Shown here: in pieces, positions 2,118 to 54,112 of the stretch | Position numbering within the stretch: position 1 is the first letter of the stretch | Layout: each line of letters starts with the position of its first letter | Source of the DNA: Capitulum mitella | Taxonomy: Eukaryota; Arthropoda; Thecostraca; Pollicipedomorpha; Pollicipedidae | Length of the DNA: 64,000 nucleotides | Direction: 5' to 3' | Assembly: GCA_030062745.1 (NCBI GenBank) | Contig: CP099841.1 | Location: 5,030,423 to 5,094,422, forward strand | The notes under the pieces: generated by a model | What the model was told of the DNA's origin: nothing | The model's database searches: none | What the model saw: only the letters and a program-made list of their open reading frames with translations | Position numbers and translations under genes: made by a program

Positions 2118-21490
<19,373 letters not shown>

Positions 21491-27523: not shown

Positions 27524-27880
27524 CCGCCAACAACAAGTTGTGCATACAAACACGAGTATAGAATATACGCTTGCAGTTTGGATGCTATTTATGATATATG
27601 CATTATGTATTATGGTGTCTTCATGGTGTTGTAACAACCCCAAAGTGTCAGCAGGTGTTTGTCCGTGCATCGTGTGCACGATCACAAGCTGTCACCACAC
27701 CTTCCTCTGTTTAAGTTCATGATTGGTCCTTACATCGACCGTCGTCTTTGCGGTCCATTGGTCCACCCATTATTCATTTGGTATTTGTTTGTTTGCATTG
27801 AGTGCTGTCGTTCTTGATTTAATGCGTGCGTATTGGTGTCATCAAACGTTCGCGGAATTTATCGTTCTCCCGGCTTTTCA

Positions 27881-27959
27881 GGCGTCCGCGGAGACGTGTC
27901 GAAGCCAGGGCTGTCACCAGGTCGGTACATCCCTCAGAGATCGGCGGCCGACGCCGGGC
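27881..27959 (+). other. Likely 5'UTR part of the CELF exon
   Basis: A strong acceptor (CTCCCGGCTTTTCAG) ends at 27880, and the sequence turns GC-rich exactly there. This suggests an upstream non-coding exon and a 79-base leader before the ATG. The frame is also open upstream of the acceptor, so an N-terminal extension is not excluded. Confidence 0.55.
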
Positions 27960-28943
27960 ATGACCAGCAACGAGGCGGGCGCCATGAACAATGGCGGCGA
28001 CAAGGCTGACGGCGGCGCCGAGCAGCCGGCGGCGGCGGCGGTGGCAGCGGGCGGCGCCAGCAGCGGCGACGCTCCGCGGCTCGGACCGGCCGGCGGCCTC
28101 CTCAGCAAGGCCGGCGGCGGCGGCCTGCTGAGCAAGGCCGGCACCGTGCCGGGCAGCGGCGGCGACCAGCCGAAGCCGGCCGTGGCTGGCCTGCTCGCCA
28201 AGGCGGCCGACGGCGGCGCCGACGAGCCGGCCAAGACGGCCTCCGGCGACCCGCCCACCAGCAACGGCGAGAGCGCGCCGAAGCGACGCAACCCGGCCCA
28301 CCCAGACCCGGACACGATCAAGATGTTCGCCGGCCAAATCCCGCGCCGCATGGAGGAGGCCGAGCTGCGCGCGGTGTTCGAGGAGTTCGGCCCCGTCTAC
28401 CAGCTGAACATCCTGAAGGACCGCGCCACCGGCCAGAGCCGCGGCTGCTGCTTCGTCACCTTCTACACGCGCAAGGCAGCGCTGGACGCGCAGAACGCGC
28501 TGCACAACCTGCGCACGCTGCCCAGCATGCACCACCCGATGCAGATGAAGCCGGCCGACGCGGAGAACCGCAGCGAGCGCAAGCTGTTCGTCGGCATGAT
28601 CGGCAAGCAGTGCAATGACGAGCAGGTGTGGGCCATGTTCGAGAAGTTCGGCCCGATCGAGGAGTGCACCGTGCTGCGCGACCAGAAGAACAACAGCAAG
28701 GGTTGCGCGTTCGTCACGTTCATGTCGCGCCAGAACGCGATCGCGGCGATCCGCGGCCTGCACCACTCGCGCACCATGGAGGGCTGCTCGGCGCCGCTGG
28801 TGGTCAAGTTCGCCGACTCTCAGCGCGACCGCGACAACCGGCGCGGTCCCTTCGGCCCGCCGCAGGGCGGCGCCAACTTCCAGCCGCAGGGCAACTACGG
28901 CGGCTGGGGCCAGCAGCAGCAGCAGAACCAGCTGCCGCCGCCC

Positions 28944-28974
<31 letters not shown>

Positions 28975-29810
28975 CCAACATGATGAACCCGTTCAGCCCG
29001 CAATGCCTGTCGCTGCTGCAGCAGCTGAGCAACGCGGCCAACGCGCTGTCGTCGATGGCTAGCCAGGGCATGCCCAACTGCCCGCCGCCCAACACCTTCG
29101 GCATGCCGCCGCCGAACAACGGCATGGGCCCGCCGCCGGCCGGCGGCAACCAGCAGGGCAACTTTAACCAGCAGAACAACCCGGCGTCGGCGCTGGCCAT
29201 GGTGCTGCAGGCGGCAGCCATGACGAGGGCGGCCGGCGGCGGTGGTCCGTCCTTCCAGGGACCGCCGCCCAACAGCGCCGGCGGCAACTTCAACCCCGGT
29301 AACAATTTCAGCAGTCCACCCGGAAACTTCAACTCCGGCGGCAACCTCAGCAACTCTGGCGGCAACTTCAACGCCGGCGGCGGCAGCTACGGCGGAGGTT
29401 CGAACAGCATGGGCGGCACGTCGGGCAACAACTTCGGTTCGTTCTCCAACCCTCCACCGTTCGCGGTGTCTCAGAACACCTACCCCCGCGCCCAGCCGGC
29501 CAACTCCAACACGCCACTCGGCAGGCAGGTGGAAGGTCCTGACGGCTGCAACCTCTTCATCTACCACCTGCCGCAGCAGTGCAACGACGCCGACCTGGCC
29601 AACATGTTCTCGCCCTTCGGCAACGTCATCTCGGCTAAGGTATTTGTCGACAAGCAGACCAACATGTCCAAGTGCTTCGGCTTCGTCTCGTACGACAACC
29701 AGGCCAGCGCCGAAGCGGCCATCCAGGGCATGAATAGCTTCATGATCGGCTCCAAGCGGCTCAAAGTGCAGCCGAAACGTTCCATGAAGGACTCGGCCAA
29801 ACCCTACTGA
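27960..29810 (+). CDS. CELF/Bruno-type RNA-binding protein, coding sequence in one exon
   Basis: 616 aa. CELF proteins bind GU-rich RNA and control splicing in the nucleus and translation or decay in the cytoplasm. RRM1 at about aa 121-199 (RNP2 MFAGQI, RNP1 RGCCFVTF), RRM2 at about 208-287 ([14 protein letters not shown]), then a long linker rich in Gln, Asn, Gly and Pro (290-529) with a poly-Gln tract, and RRM3 at about 530-608 ([14 protein letters not shown]). The end [11 protein letters not shown] matches the family's K-R-S...KPY tail. [19 protein letters not shown] in RRM2 is closer to CELF1/2 (bru1/bru2) than to CELF3-6. An in-frame ATG eight codons downstream is an alternative start. 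Known family genes have many coding introns; here there are none, so a retrogene is possible. The frame is intact and third positions are strongly G/C-biased. Confidence 0.95.
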
Positions 29811-42180: not shown

Positions 42181-43006
42181 ACGAGCTGATGTGCTCCACA
42201 GATGGTCGGGCACCAGGGTTTACACAGGAATGCAAGCATCGTGGGCAATCGGAGAACTTCGGACGTCGGCCAGAGATAGAAGCCTCTTCCCTGAAAGCCA
42301 CCATCAACCGGATTATCTCCGCTACGTCTGAGTAGCCTTTTGGAGCTCTTGTCGCAGGGCGAAAAGAGCGAACTCTTGTTCGGCTGTGCGCAGGGACTAA
42401 CCTGTAAACAGTGATTGGTTATGGGCATGTGTGATAACTGATCAGCTTATATTTGAACAATGCACCGCCTGTCAGAATGACAGCGCGTCTTCCAGTGACG
42501 TCTGAATAATGACACGCTTGAGGAAAGTCGGGACCAAATACTCAACATCTCATGATGCTGGCAAACTGCTTGTTGGCAAGGGCAGATCTGGGCGGGACTA
42601 AGGCCATGCCTCTGGTCTTTTTACGGAAAATTTGGTGTTCTGGGGACGACCTGACGCGCGGTGAAGCCGTCTTCGGTTGCGGATGAGTGGAAGACGTCAT
42701 TAATCAGTGACTTTCGCTGAGTTAGACCCGATGAATTTTTGACATTCAACATCTTTGTGAAAGATGCCCCAATTCGTTGTACGATTTTGATTCTTTCCTC
42801 CAAAATCCGCACGTAAGCTGACATGACGATATCCAAAGTGTCATCAACATGAAGACATAGAAATTACCCAGAAAATTACGACACTCAGAGTAACGCCGAC
42901 GCTGACGACTAAAATGCTTCTGATTTTATCCAAACACATGTTTAGCTGTATATCATGTCTCCAATATACATTATAATGATGTAACCCTTGTTGGGACGGG
43001 ACTCCC
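42181..43006. other. Intergenic, nothing recognised
   Basis: No gene or repeat recognised in this stretch. Confidence 0.25.
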
Positions 43007-43010
43007 TTAA

Positions 43011-44188
43011 CCCTATTCCCGGAGGGCTAGACGGTATGGTCGATTCCCGGCAGGGGGGGGCCGATTCGGCCCCCCCTGAGATCTCGAGAACTACTCGTCC
43101 GATTTCATCGCAACAAACGGCAATCGATTTGCCGTGACGTGAACTACATCGAAATTTGTGGATACAAGGGGCCAAAAATGTCAAAATGGGGGGTACTTTT
43201 GGACTTCTTATAAGTCCGTCGTTTATGGACCGATTTCAATGAAACTGGCATGAATCGAGAGATTATGGATAGGGCTTTTACCATGGGTCCGCAAATCTGA
43301 TATTTTGAGAACATTCATGGGCGTTCACAGGGTTTCAAAAATAGGAGGATTAATTTTCCAACAACTGAATGAACAAAAAAGGTAAAAGCACTTTTTTGGC
43401 TTCTGCTAGTCATCCTATGCTAAAAAAGTACAAATCGTATTGCAATGCTGGTATAATGTTAGCATAGGCGGTGCCAGGGACATGAAAAAGTGGGAACTGT
43501 CATGGTCACACGTTCTTCAGATCAACTTGTGACCTTTGACCTTAAATGACCTCCAGTGACCTTGAGGTCGCCTGGAATGATCTCGTGTGCATTTGATACT
43601 ATCTGTAAACGTTTTAAATCATCTGAATTCACTCTATTCCAAAAATTTCATTTTATGGCTATTGCGATATAGGGTACGCGCACTGACATTTTAGGTCATA
43701 GCTCCGTGACCCAACCTGATATCAAGCTGAAACTTTGTACACAAGTAGAGGGTATCCTTCTACGTCATATATATTCCGGATTTGGCATTTGAAAAAACGG
43801 CGCCGAAATTATTGCAAAAAAATAAATTTTGTTTTTTGACCTTGACCTGACCTTGTAAAGTGACATCAGATAAACAACATTTTGTGTGCACATTGCCCAA
43901 GTATTTAGCTATACAGCCATATAAAGTTTTAGGTTCTATCTTAAAAACTCTGTTTTTGGCAGCCATTTTCCTTTTACCCTCAACATGGCCAAAAATAGTC
44001 TGAGGTTCCTCCCAAAAACGTTGCCTGGTTCCGCTCCTGAGCAAAGTAGAATTGTGAAATTTTGTCACAGCGCGTAGAAAGCATAGCTAGGAAAAGTCGC
44101 CAAGTTTCGTGAAGCTGCGTCAAAAAGCCTGGAATTGGCAAGCAAAAAACTCGGAGGGGCGGATTCAGCCCCCCTGCCGGGAATAGGG
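43011..44188. mobile_element. Complete non-autonomous piggyBac-like element
   Basis: 1178 bp. The left end CCCTATTCCCGG and the right end CCGGGAATAGGG are exact inverted copies. Each is flanked outside by TTAA (43007-43010 and 44189-44192), the target duplication of the piggyBac superfamily. No transposase frame is present, so it would depend on an enzyme supplied elsewhere. Related copies start at 8409 and 34605. Confidence 0.85.
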
Positions 44189-48022: not shown

Positions 48023-48031
48023 GCTAATCAC
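48023..48031. repeat. Target-site duplication, left copy
   Basis: GCTAATCAC, repeated exactly at 54104-54112 on the other side of the 6-kb element. Confidence 0.85.
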
Positions 48032-48214
48032 ATGTGTGTCAAGACAGCCCACGGTCAGCCCACGCTCAGCCCACGGTCAGCCCATAAAAGCGGCCCCTTC
48101 AAAAGCGCCCAAAATGCACCATATGATGCATCTGGACGAGCTGAATACGATGGTGCAATTTAATGTTGGGTGCGTCCAATACTTTAGCCTGCAGAGCCAA
48201 TTATCAATCAAAGG

Positions 48215-49476
48215 GTGAGAGTTTCTCACTAATATTCACAGCCGACTGCATATAGTCGAGTAGCATCTCAAACGACTCCCCGTGTCAAGCCGAGCTCAAA
48301 ACTACCTCTTGTTGACCAATATCTTTTCAACTTTTCCAGCAGCACACATGTCGATTCGGTTTTTAACCTAATGCTTTATTTCCCATAGACTTTAACATTG
48401 AGGGCAACGGTCGTGAATTGGCCGGCCACTACGATTTCTCTGATTTTCCGTGTATGGGTACCCTGACCAGGAACACACTGCCTGGCAGTGAAATTTGCCG
48501 GGTGCATTGATATTCTCACCGATTACAAGGAGTGAGAATTTCTCACTAAAATTCACAACCGACTGCATATAGTCGAGTAGCATCTCAAACGACTCCCCGT
48601 GTCAAGCCGAGCTCAAAACTACCTCTTATGTATCAATATGTTTTCAACTTTTTGAGAAACATGCATCCAGAACCGGTTTTTCACCTAATGTTTTATTTCC
48701 CATAGGCTTTAACATTGAGGGCAACGGTCGTGAATTGGCCGGCCCCTACGATTTTTCTGATTTTTCGTGTATGGGTACCCTGACCAGGAACACACTGCCT
48801 GGCAGTGAAATTTGCCGGGTGCATTGATATTCTCACCGATTAGAAGGGGTGAGAATTTCTCACTAAAATTCACAACCGACTGCATAAAGTCGAGTAGCAT
48901 CTCAAACGACTCCCCGTGTCAAGCCGAGCTCAAAACTACCTCTTGTTGACCAATATCTTTTCAACTTTTTCAGTAGCACACATATCGATTCGGTTTTTAA
49001 CCTAATGCTTTATTTCCCATAGACATTGAGGGCAACGGTCGTGAATTGGCCGGCCCCTACGATTTTTCTGATTTTTCGTGTATGGGTACCCTAGCCAAGA
49101 ACACACTGCCTGGCAGTGAAACTTGCCGGGTGCATTGATATTCTCACCGATTACAAGGAGTGAGAATTTCTCACTGAAATTCACAACCGACTCCATATAG
49201 TCGAGTAGCATCTCAAACGACTTCCGGTGTCAAGCCGAGCTCAAAACTATCTCTTGTTTATCAATATCTTTTCAACTTTTTGAGAAACATGCATCCAGAA
49301 CCGGTTTTTCACCTAATGCTTTATTTCCCATAGGCTTTAACAATGAGGGCAACGGTCGTGAATTGGCCGGCCCCTACGATTTTTCTAATTTCTGGTGGAT
49401 GGGTACCCTCATGCAAGACACACTGCCCCTCAGCGAAATTTGCCGGGTGCATTGACATTCTCATTAATTACAAGGG
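48215..49476. repeat. Left tandem array, four 317-bp units
   Basis: Each unit opens with a near-palindrome GTGAGAATTTCTCAC and contains GGTACCCTGACCAGGAACAC and TTGAGGGCAACGGTCGTGAA. A 63-codon frame is open in the units only because they are copies of one another. Confidence 0.9.
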
Positions 49477-50059
49477 GTGGGAGTTTCTCCCGAAAACTCT
49501 GATCGCTGTAAACGCTGTCAAACTCTCCGTGTGATGTTGAGCTCAAAACTGTTTCTAGTTAATTTCTATTTCCTCGAGTTTTGTGTAACATGCATATCTA
49601 TTTGTTTTTTTCCACGTAATGGTGTATTTCCTGTAGGGTTTGTTAGGCATGTGTCTCCTTGTTGTGGGGGCATCGCGAGTGATTTGTCTGACTCCTAGGA
49701 TGTGCCTCTTTTTGTTATATAGGCGACTACTTGTCCGATTTATCAAAGTAAGACGTGTGTTTCGGTTAATTCTCATCACCTGAAATACTGGCTCGAAAAC
49801 GTACGTATATTTATCTGGAAAACAATTGCATCTTTATACACCTGAAGCGAGGAATTACAATCTCACAGGGATCAAATGTTCACGCGATAATATCATCCCT
49901 TTGGAACGACTATTGGGACAGGGTTCTGTAGCGCAAAATCGTTGGTCAAAATCCTGTAGGGCATCGGTACCATTACTGGTGATATTTAGATTTTTATCAG
50001 CCGTTCTCAACGTTCAGTGTGAAACAAAGTGATGCATACAGCACAACACGCATGATGTA

Positions 50060-52944
50060 GAGCCAGTTGTTTCGCTGCTTGTTGTTGTTTATCGGTGTTT
50101 TCGGGCGCGCCGACTTCTGAGGTTAGTTTGCGCTTATAACGAGGTTGCTTTGCCTCACTAGTGAGGTGTGTAAAGACATCGAAGTCAGCGTCTTTAAGAA
50201 ATAGAAAGAGCTGTTTCGATTCAAGAAAGCGTGAGTTGTCTCCAAGTACATCGCAGAGCGTCAGAGACGAAGCGTGCTGTCCGAAGTGAAGTCAACGTTT
50301 TTCAGCCAAGTATGGACACGAAAGGACCACGTGGTTGACAGTGAGGAAGGCACCATATCGATGGCAGAGAGGCCTACCAGCCCTAAGCAACAGATAGCCA
50401 TGGGTCGTATAAGTGACCGATACGCAGTCTGCACAGTATTATTTCCTCTCGTCTCGCCTTGCGAGAGCAGGATAACCATGAACCAGGCTTGGGTTTTACC
50501 ATTGTGAGTTTATTGCCATCTGTCTCATCCCAAGAGCGCTGCCACTTGTTGTACAGGAAGTTCCTAGTTGCCGGATAAAAGTCTCTGGCAAGATTGGCAG
50601 AAAACGTGTACATAGTGTCAGCGTTGCTCGCCTGGCAGCGGCATCGGTCAACTCGTTGTCCGTAATTCTGACGTGACTGGGTATCCAGCACAGGATGATT
50701 TTATTCCCAGTCCGATCCAGTTGTGTCAGACGTAGTAAAATGTCCTGTAGAAGGAAACATGCTGAATACAAAGATCTAAGAGCAATAAGGCTGCTAAGGG
50801 AATCCGTTAAAATCAGGTATAGTGATTCGTCACCAACTTCGATGAAACATAACGCCTTGGTGATTGTTATCAATTCCGATGTAAAAACAGACGCGTGTGC
50901 AGGCAACGAGAACGATCGGGTGACAGAACCGCACACAAACGCACAACCAACACCACCGGCGGTCTCAGATCCGTCCATGTACGTCAGTGTGTATCCGTCA
51001 TATGACGCCATGCGCTCCAGCGCCCTGGATCCCATTATATTTGGCATGGCTTCATTCTTTCTAATTTCTGCAAGCAAGGTGTCTATTGAAGGTGACGTCA
51101 AATGCCAGGGAGGAGAAGGCAGATGGCTTATTCGCTTCACCCCTCGAAGAGGAAATTCGCTCTCCTGCAACAGAGCTCGCATTCGGAAGCCGAAAGGCGG
51201 AGTGCGCTGCTGCGATCCACCGCGAAGGAAGCTCACAGTGGACCGTGAAAAACCTGCGTCATACGTCGGGTGTAACGGGAATTGTCGCAACTTCAGGGGA
51301 TAGCGCATGCCGAGCATTTTCCTCCTCGTCGACAGTGGCGACTCGTGTGACTCTGCCATAAGGCTAACAGCGGGTGATGTGCGGAAGGCCCCTGTGATGA
51401 TGCGGAGAGCGGTGTGATGGATGGTGTCTAGAATGCACTTGCTGGATCACATGCGCTGTCATACACAAAACATGCATAATCCAGCTTGGAGCGGACGAGA
51501 GAACGATATAACAGCATTGTGCGTGACACACATTTTAATATGTTCAGAGACTTAAAACAGCGATCGCTTAAAGTTTCCAGATGTGCATTATACGTAAGGC
51601 GGCGGTCAAAATACACCCAAAGATATCTGGCCACAGACTCTGTTGGAATGCACTGTCCATACAAACGGAGAGTCATTTCACCGTATCTGCAGCGACGAAG
51701 AAGATGCATGGCTGCGGTCTTATTTTTTAAAAACTGAACCCATTCATGGTGCTCCACCTCTCCACGCGGTCCACAGCCAGCTGGAGATGCCGTTCCATTG
51801 ATGGTGCTCTTACTGCACTCGTCCAAATGGCAAAAACATCAACAAAAAGAGCACAGCCAACAGACTGGGGGAGCACATCACCGATGTCGTTTATCATAAC
51901 TGCGAACAACGCTGCACTTCACACCGCCTTGGGGTACACCGTTTATTTGTGGGAACTTTTCGGAGAGCGTGTTTCCAACACGGAGACGGAAAAAACAGTC
52001 AGCTAAAAAGCGTCGAAGAAAAGTACTCATACGACCACGTTTACCATATCTAAACAGCTTTACAAGAATACCATGAAACCAAGTGGCGTCGTAGGCGCCC
52101 TCAGTGTCAAAGAAGGCTGTGCCTATATGCCTGATCGCTTTAAAACCGGTACGAATCATAGTGTCTAGAGCTATAAGATGGTCCACTATGTCCGGTTCTT
52201 TCTAAAACCGCACTGCGCGTTAGTAAAAACGTGATGCTGTTCAAAAAAAGGTCAATCGTGCGTTCACCATCTTTTCCATCAGTTTACAAAGTGATGACGT
52301 AAGAGAAATGGGTCTGTAGTGAAGAGGATCTAATCCACTTTTGCCTGGTTTCAGAAGTGGAACTATTACAGCTTCTCGCCAAACAGCTGGGAATTCATCT
52401 CTTAACCACAATGAGTTAAAATCCACCAAAAGCACGCGAAGTATGCAGGGCGGCAGATGTCTGAGCATGTCGTTGCGTATGGTATCAGGGCCTTCTGACA
52501 CACTGCGAAGCTTGACAACTGCCGATTCCAACTCCATCAAAGTGAATGGCTCATTGTATGCCTGCGATTCACTCGTGGAAAAATCTATCACTGTTTGCTA
52601 ACATCATGCTCTGTGCCGTAAGAACTGTGGGTTCGTGTTACCACCTTTGCTACGGTGTGACAAGGCTTGTGCAATCTCGTTAGCCACATCCAATGGCTGC
52701 GTCACAGTCTGGCCGTCCACACGTAGCACAGGAAGCGGCACGGATGAAAACTGCCCAGAAATACGCTTGTTCCGCGCCCAGATCTGCGAAGTTGGCGTAA
52801 ATCGGTTGAGCGTGTTACGTACGCACGCCAGGAAATACGTTTCGCTTCCCTTATCGTGCGCCGAGCTAAAGCTCTCGCCTTCTTGAAGGCTATTAGGTTC
52901 TCCATGCGACTCCTGACGTCAAAAGCACGGAATGCGCGTCGGTT
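50060..52944 (-). pseudogene. Decayed, 5'-truncated LINE (RT and RNase H), I/R1-like
   Basis: Minus strand, in order: a linker with RAFRAFDVRSRMENLIAFKK and IREAKRISW (52944-52700); RT palm pieces ESAVVKLRSVSEGPDTIRND and VPLLKPGKSGLDPLHYRPIS (52591-52241); FFDTEGAYDATWFHGILVKL and GVPQGG (52186-51878); FVDVFAIW in place of the catalytic F-x-DD (near 51840); an RNase H domain with YMDGSET, VFTSELI, LTDSLSSL and IPSHVRITDNELTDAAARR (51359-50600); and a C-terminal RLRIGH...VNHVVLSCPYLAEKR segment. Endonuclease and ORF1 are missing, and frames shift several times. RNase H after RT places it in the I superfamily rather than CR1 or jockey proper. Confidence 0.88.
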
Positions 52945-53920
52945 GTGAATTTTAGTGAGAAATTCTCACCCCTTGTGATTGGTGAGAATATCAATGCACC
53001 CGGCAAGTTTCACTGCCAGGCAGTGTGTTCCTGGTCAGGGTACCCATGCACGAAAAATTAGAAAAATCGTAGGGGCCGGCCAATTCACGACCGTTGCCCT
53101 CAATGTTAAAGTCTATGGGAAAGAAAACATTAGGTTAAAAACCGAATCGACACGTGTGCTACTGAAAAAGTTGAAAATATATTGATAAACAAGAGGTAGT
53201 TTTGAGCTCGGCTTGACACGGGGAGTCGTTTGAGATGCTACTCGACTATATGCAGTCGGTTGTGAATTTTAGTGAGAAATTCTCACCCCTTCTAATCGGT
53301 GAGAATATCAATGCACCCGGCAAATTTCACTGCCAGGCAGTGTGTTCCTGGTCAGGGTACCCATACACGAAAAATCAGAAAAATCGTAGGGGCCGGCCAA
53401 TTCACGACCGTTGCCCTCGATGTTAAAGCCTATGGGAAATAAAACATTAGGTGAAAAACCGGTTCTGGATGCATGTTTCTCAAAAAGTTGAAAACATATT
53501 GATACATAAGAGGTAGTTTTGAGCTCGGCTTGACACGGGGAGTCGTTTGAGATGCTACTCGACTATATGCAGTCGGTTGTGAATTTTAGTGAGAAATTCT
53601 CACTCCTTGTAATCGGTGAGAATATCAATGCACCCGGCAAATTTCACTGCCAGGCAGTGTGTTCCTGGTCAGGGTACCCATACACGGAAAATCAGAGAAA
53701 TCGTAGTGGCCGGCCAATTCACGACCGTTGCCCTCAATGTTAAAGTCTATGGGAAATAAAGCATTAGGTTAAAAACCGAATCGATATGTGTGCTGCTGGA
53801 AAAGTTGAAAAGATATTGGTCAACAAGAGGTAGTTTTGAGCTCGGCTTGACACGGGGAGTCGTTTGAGATGCTACTCGACTATATGCAGTCGGCTGTGAA
53901 TATTAGTGAGAAACTCTCAC
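52944..53920. repeat. Right tandem array, three 317-bp units, inverted relative to the left
   Basis: Palindrome anchors GTGAGAAATTCTCAC at 52955, 53272 and 53589, and GTGAGAAACTCTCAC at 53906, are spaced exactly 317 bp apart. The innermost unit is cut at about 52944, where the LINE begins. Confidence 0.9.
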
Positions 53921-54103
53921 CCTTTGATTGATAATTGGCTCTGCAGGCTAAAGTATTGGACGCACCCAACATTAAATTGCACCATCGTATTCAGCTCGTC
54001 CAGATGCATCATATGGTGCATTTTGGGCGCTTTTGAAGGGGTCGCTTTTATGGGCTGACCGTGGGCTGAGCGTGGGCTGACCGTGGGCTGTCTTGACACA
54101 CAT

Positions 54104-54112
54104 GCTAATCAC
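54104..54112. repeat. Target-site duplication, right copy
   Basis: GCTAATCAC, identical and in the same orientation as 48023-48031. Confidence 0.85.

Follow-up and report, generated by a model that had tools for sequence, protein, structure and literature searches.

A foldback element with a retrotransposon-derived core in Capitulum mitella and coding relatives that may supply its transposase

An element of 6,072 bp lies complete at positions 48032-54103 of the window, the 64-kb stretch of the Capitulum mitella genome analyzed here. It is flanked by short direct repeats and ends in long inverted arms built of tandem units. The locus raises the questions of what kind of transposon this is, what it carries between its arms, and which enzyme moves it. 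We consider it likely that the element is a non-autonomous foldback DNA transposon moved in trans, with coding relatives in the same genome as the likely source of the transposase and with a core that is cargo.

Boundaries, copies and target duplications

The 9-bp sequence GCTAATCAC is present directly on either side of the element. It has two exact occurrences in the window and none on the opposite strand. The sequence ATGTGTGTCAAGACAGCCC occurs once on each strand of the window, at the two termini. An earlier note on this DNA had reported both repeats, which proved exact. The same note described inverted arms of about 1.4 and 1.15 kb, each comprising an outer module and 317-bp units, and was right about both lengths and make-up (Table 1). 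Pairing of the arms extends over 997 nt at 99% identity (1,166 columns at 97.8%), and the units of the right arm run in inverted order relative to those of the left arm. Elsewhere in the window, the open frame containing RRM domains appeared CELF/Bruno-like by eye.

Table 1. Features located in the window.
Feature	Position	Strand	Score or remark
U4 spliceosomal RNA	4889-5029	+	118.3 bits
Second related empty site of copy C8:2141813, 10-bp target present once	8880..8889	-	318/385 alike
Single 695-aa open frame, three RRM domains	27723-29810	+	
Related empty site of copy C2:32960276, 9-bp target present once	43017..43025	-	right-side match short only
Related empty site of copy C8:2141813, 10-bp target present once	43468..43477	-	joined flanks, 357/390 aligned bases alike
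Left copy of 9-bp target duplication GCTAATCAC	48023..48031	.	exact match to right copy
Left outer module, 177 bp, starts with ATGTGTGTCAAGACAGCCC, contains an 11-bp repeat	48032..48208	+	end pattern 257 times in genome
Left arm array, four units of ~317 bp (48209-48525, 48526-48842, 48844-49153, 49154-49463)	48209..49463	+	
Family core, a decayed, 5'-truncated non-LTR retrotransposon whose reverse transcriptase and RNase H frames are broken	49464..52977	-	array-edge sequence at either border
Degenerate unit at inner edge of left array	49518..49724	+	local scores 82, 53 (shuffle maxima 33, 32)
316-aa open frame with RNase H remnant	50496..51446	-	22.4 bits, under cut-off of 25.8
Right arm array, a partial unit and three full units (52978-53291, 53293-53609, 53610-53926)	52938..53926	-	
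Right outer module, likewise 177 bp, starting with ATGTGTGTCAAGACAGCCC and containing the 11-bp repeat	53927..54103	-	
Right copy of 9-bp target duplication GCTAATCAC	54104..54112	.	exact match to left copy

The genome of the host (477 Mb, 16 contigs) was searched with the first 23 bases of the element, with at most three mismatches. This search, of the kind advised in the earlier note, returned 257 matches, versus none for the reversed control pattern, and located coding relatives with similar ends. The window copy was compared with 23 copies fetched from the first genome search, 24 copies in total, and copies were found in either orientation on the chromosome. Twenty of the 24 copies were scored at either end, including 16 as plus/minus pairs (the window copy among them) and four that were completed within the fetched stretch. 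The flanks were identical over exactly 9 bp in 12 copies and over exactly 10 bp in three copies. The remaining five copies displayed a 9- or 10-bp match with one mismatch, one of them being located in an AT repeat and carrying little weight. As a control, left flanks were compared with the wrong right flanks, and none of the 380 comparisons gave a match at 9 or 10 bp, even allowing one mismatch. Together, the 20 copies fixed the boundary of the element at ATGTG, not CATGTG.

The ends of another 16 pairs were then read. An exact 9-bp duplication was present in pair C2:13669046, and among three short pairs one had a 9-bp duplication with one mismatch and two had none. The 12 other pairs comprised seven with an exact 9-bp duplication, one with a mismatch, and four without duplication. 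In total, 36 complete copies were analyzed: 20 with exact 9-bp duplications, three with exact 10-bp duplications, seven with one mismatch, and six without duplication (C16:11917108, C12:2411856, C8:6605211, C4:30333316, C13:8282230, and C10:2987465). These 36 pairs represent 72 of the 257 ends and were picked for the presence of an opposite end within about 13 kb and for top rank among the matches listed. Target duplications of 8-11 bp are given for the Mutator superfamily (MULE) in the description that we used (PMC6446971), and the 9- or 10-bp duplications of the window's family, exact in 23 of 36 copies and with one mismatch in seven more, are of this type. The earlier note had proposed a non-autonomous DNA transposon combining a Mutator-type duplication with foldback arms, a reading that would have been weakened if other copies had lacked the duplication; its presence at 9-10 bp, exact or with one mismatch, in 30 of 36 copies upholds the proposal. 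At C4:30333316-30346513, the flanks are CACTGGC and GCCAGTG, inverted rather than direct, which may be due to chance or be the trace of a recombination between copies.

The two arms of an element are 97.0-100% alike over the outer 470 bp (20 copies). The mean pairwise difference between 15 copies was 0.9%, and the window copy differed from the others by a mean of 2.2%.

For two of the 20 insertions, the target was another dispersed repeat, uninterrupted copies of which are present in the window. The related empty sites (Table 1) show precise insertion with target duplication. Together, the duplications and the empty sites show that the family transposes as a unit. Copies of a dispersed repeat with ends CCCTATTCCCGG are present at window positions 43006-43764 and 8415-9130, and a relative of about 1.2 kb, with TTAA on its flanks, lies inside the core of copy C5:30503635. 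Judging from its ends, this repeat looks like a TTAA-type (piggyBac-like) element.

Arm arrays and the common core

As in foldback elements, the inverted arms consist of tandem units that vary between copies, and the elements move as a unit with target duplication. The 24 copies contained 251 full-length units, and the arms that were covered had between 1 and 20 full units each. Units of the same element were more alike (means of 0.974-0.981) than units of different elements (0.965). Core-adjacent units were the most diverged, with a between-element likeness of 0.942 versus 0.976 for middle units. This pattern suggests that the arrays expand and homogenize away from the inner edge. We also considered that the unit might be a duplicated piece of the outer module, in the manner of the Tetris element discussed below. 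The local scores of 20 and 26 are to be compared with shuffle 95% points of 28 and 26, respectively, and shuffle maxima of 34 and 33. Since the scores are within the shuffle range, an origin of the unit from the outer module is not supported.

A single core is common to all 24 copies; in some of them an insert interrupts it or the fetched stretch ends within it. The longest open frame across the 20 aligned cores does not exceed 316 aa, and no transposase was found in the core of the 317-bp-unit family. In a sister copy, matches were obtained in three separate pieces of the core, to reverse transcriptase (56.7 and 24.4 bits, cut-off 29.6) and to RNase H (27.8 bits, cut-off 25.8), PF00078 and PF00075 both exceeding their cut-offs in pieces of one core. 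Judged by its domain matches, the core is a decayed fragment of a non-LTR retrotransposon, containing reverse transcriptase and RNase H, and not a transposase. The earlier note had seen no transposase, and this stands for the core; the coding relatives of this genome encode a candidate.

Endonuclease matches (PF14529 and PF03372) were detected in a longer copy, L038. Pair C12:2411856 contains the same core plus extra upstream sequence that includes an endonuclease domain (PF14529, 56.6 bits). The core of C12:2411856 suggests that a longer retrotransposon was present between the arms first and was truncated later, an order that we only infer since this pair has no target duplication. A sequence of about 1.3 kb bounded by inverted ends GGGGAAGGTGGGGTAAGACGG beside TA interrupts the core of C4:30333316 and looks like a non-autonomous element of the Tc1/mariner type.

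Coding relatives and the source of the transposase

Both inverted arms are complete in the coding element C2:13669046-13678611, which is flanked by GAGCTCAAG as an exact 9-bp duplication. Over 86 bp, its ends and those of the 317-bp-unit elements are 85-87% alike. The left arm contains six 329-bp units and the right arm about 2.6. These units are homologous to the 317-bp units over about 180 bp with about two thirds identity (score of 106 versus a shuffle maximum of 33). In the core, two open frames (491 and 404 aa) overlap, corresponding to a frameshifted gene. Three more pairs, read in parts, harbored the same gene between the same 329-bp-unit arms, with exact 9-bp duplications in two of the three.

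A genome search with the 404-aa part returned 104 matches, two of which were within open frames of 1181 aa, and its relatives reached down to 34% identity across most of the query. One of the two 1181-aa copies, that of C12, was read (the other is C3:26146961). The frame of the C12 copy is open, its left arm is missing, and N is present at the second acidic position. An Ulp1/C48 protease domain was detected at the C-terminus (31.5 bits, Pfam cut-off 20.7) and also in a piece of the C16 copy (22.4 bits, Pfam). Among four diverged relatives, C48 scored 20.1, 16.9, and 16.2 bits in three, below the cut-off of 20.7, and gave no score in one. The protein of the coding relatives combines, in one open frame, a D...(D/N)...E pattern, an in-frame minisatellite, and the C-terminal Ulp1/C48 protease domain. 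The motifs H.D, C..H, and SNA.VES were kept in all six aligned rows, in which the middle acidic position was D in four and N in two. The long open frames L065 and L069 have N for D at this second position, a substitution that may make them inactive though open. No coding copy that was examined retained both arms together with an open frame that has D at the second acidic position. A mariner-like open frame, named by eye, is present on the other strand inside coding copies L039 and L041 (C7). Plant MULEs (Kaonashi) also have an Ulp1/C48 protease domain; by description, the coding relatives are similarly transposons carrying this domain, which here forms the C-terminus of the open frame that also encodes the DDE-like part.

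The candidate transposase may use DDE chemistry. The C2 copy shows a D-D spacing of 74 residues and a D-E spacing of 207 residues. According to the description of arthropod MULEs used here (PMC13359780), the D-D spacing is 60-76, which includes the value of 74, and the D-E spacing is 120-135 in most clades, which is exceeded by the value of 207, and 214 in one clade, to which that value is near. None of the Pfam transposase models attained its cut-off with the coding-relative proteins, and the same was true of the Pfam FLYWCH and MULE models. PF10551 gave no match in four of five proteins and 14.2 bits (cut-off 27.6) in the fifth, over the D1-D2 stretch. Comparison of a profile of the protein with one PF10551 protein from the same genome was negative, and the sequence tests of Mutator membership did not reach significance. 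No Pfam PHD finger was detected in five proteins (some cut or from one-armed copies) at E values up to 0.1. The search for relatives of the protein gave four pattern matches in viral contigs, none of which was confirmed, and none in phage records or NCBIfam. A PDB sequence search returned one row each at E values of 0.0086 and 0.82, which were taken as chance.

The similarity of the ends suggests that the coding-relative protein moves the window's family. Since none of the complete 317-bp-arm elements examined holds the gene for this protein, the case for mobilization in trans is built on these shared ends. Close sharing is limited to the outer ~86 bp, the units being about two thirds identical over 180 bp, and about 185 of the 257 ends lie beyond the 72 that were read. 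These observations leave room for an alternative, which we regard as rather unlikely, in which the arms and duplications are correctly interpreted but the driver is another, unseen transposase, the 329-bp-unit coding elements being a sister family unable to move the 317-bp family. This alternative has to accommodate the fact that the end-pattern matches led to four pairs containing the gene described above and that no other transposase turned up among the pairs that were read. In addition, none of the six PF10551 places in the genome coincided with the listed end pairs or the coding copies examined, and a canonical MULE gene was rejected as the driver on this basis.

The presence of reverse transcriptase and RNase H remnants in the cores could also indicate that the retrotransposon is the mover and that the arms are secondary. 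This is very improbable, as none of the 20 aligned cores is intact, the core differs in coding elements whose ends are of the same kind, and a copy of 1.15 kb is almost entirely made of arms. Moreover, DNA transposons are characterized by exact inverted ends and by duplications of fixed length, both of which are found here, the latter at 9-10 bp. Duplications of 7-8 bp characterize the P superfamily (Galileo). A Galileo-like foldback element starting with CATG, with the 7-bp duplication CTAATCA, is permitted in the window copy alone by the C and G beside the ends. We hold it to be equally improbable, since in all 20 copies the match extends to 9 or 10 bp rather than ending at 7 or 8 bp, an exact 7- or 8-bp full-length match being found in none of them. 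Finally, the 99% complementarity of the arms over 997 nt might reflect chance or the assembly-made palindrome that the earlier note had feared, a negligible prospect given the unequal arms of the window copy (four versus three units), the duplications, the empty sites, and the existence of copies at many independent places that differ in flanks and, decisively for the palindrome, in arm length and place.

Known foldback elements and proposed mechanism

The combination of a Mutator-type duplication with foldback arms is already known from the published descriptions of Tm1 (PMC3169594), Tetris (PMC4079207), and FB4 (PMC8277862). Tm1 of root-knot nematodes resembles the window's family in its foldback-like arms of tandem motifs, its 9-bp duplications, and the existence of coding and non-coding members; as described, its motif is about 14 bp and its Phantom-like transposase has FLYWCH and MULE domains, whereas the units are 317-329 bp here (PMC3169594). 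Tetris of Drosophila virilis has foldback arms and 8-10 bp duplications, and its description reports that the driver was not found (PMC4079207). Like the window's family, Tetris is non-autonomous, has inverted arms consisting of an outer domain and a variable number of tandem units (of about 220 bp in Tetris), and has a middle without coding capacity (PMC4079207). By description, the window's family differs from Tetris in its 317-bp unit, its retrotransposon core, its far more numerous complete copies, and its coding relatives in the same genome (PMC4079207). In Tetris, a 37-bp stretch is common to the units and the outer domain (PMC4079207), whereas no such similarity was found in the window's family.

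FB4 (Foldback) of Drosophila melanogaster has long repetitive inverted arms and 9-10 bp duplications, as does the window's family, and FB4 copies with captured foreign DNA (Ssk-FB4) are comparable to the cargo-bearing elements described here (PMC8277862). The FB4 transposase is recorded as unknown (PMC8277862, section 9). By description, the differences are that the cargo is a retrotransposon fragment here and that a candidate transposase is present in the genome (PMC8277862). The coding relatives share with Rehavkus 9-bp duplications and a minisatellite toward the C-terminal end of the transposase region (PMC6446971). As described (PMC6446971), Rehavkus has a PHD finger and TIRs of 26-400 bp, in contrast to the coding relatives, which gave no PHD match.

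A literature search (open-licence papers, top matches) identified no paper on the window's family, its cargo, or its candidate transposase, and no animal foldback element with a transposase bearing Ulp1/C48. The suggestion of the earlier note that the family might be undescribed thus holds insofar as none was found in print, but the mix of Mutator and foldback features on which it was based has precedents in Tm1, Tetris, and FB4. The architecture is known; what is unusual is the cargo and a candidate driver that fits none of the transposase models searched.

Under the preferred reading of a non-autonomous foldback transposon moved in trans, the transposase would recognize the two inverted ends, cut, and insert the element with a stagger of 9-10 bp. 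Its likely source would be the coding elements of the same genome, with which the terminal ~86 bp are shared and whose arms consist of 329-bp units homologous to the 317-bp ones. A non-LTR retrotransposon would have come to be enclosed by the arms, undergone 5' truncation and loss of its frames, and then multiplied with the arms, in that putative order; the core would be a passive passenger in movement. Unequal crossing-over or gene conversion could account for the variation of the arrays and their partial homogenization within an element. Additional binding sites for the transposase may lie in the block that is conserved between the two types of unit (317 and 329 bp).

More tentatively, the coding relatives might represent a transposase lineage missed by Pfam, comprising a DDE-like core, a minisatellite linker, and a SUMO-type Ulp1/C48 protease, that moves elements with foldback arms, including the swarm with retrotransposon cargo, and that could be of the kind driving FB4 and Tetris. 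Since non-autonomous and coding foldback elements with similar ends are present in one genome, the driver and the reason for arms made of tandem units are directly testable. The family also illustrates how a DNA transposon can multiply a dead retrotransposon as its cargo, and how a tandem repeat can spread and grow longer genome-wide.
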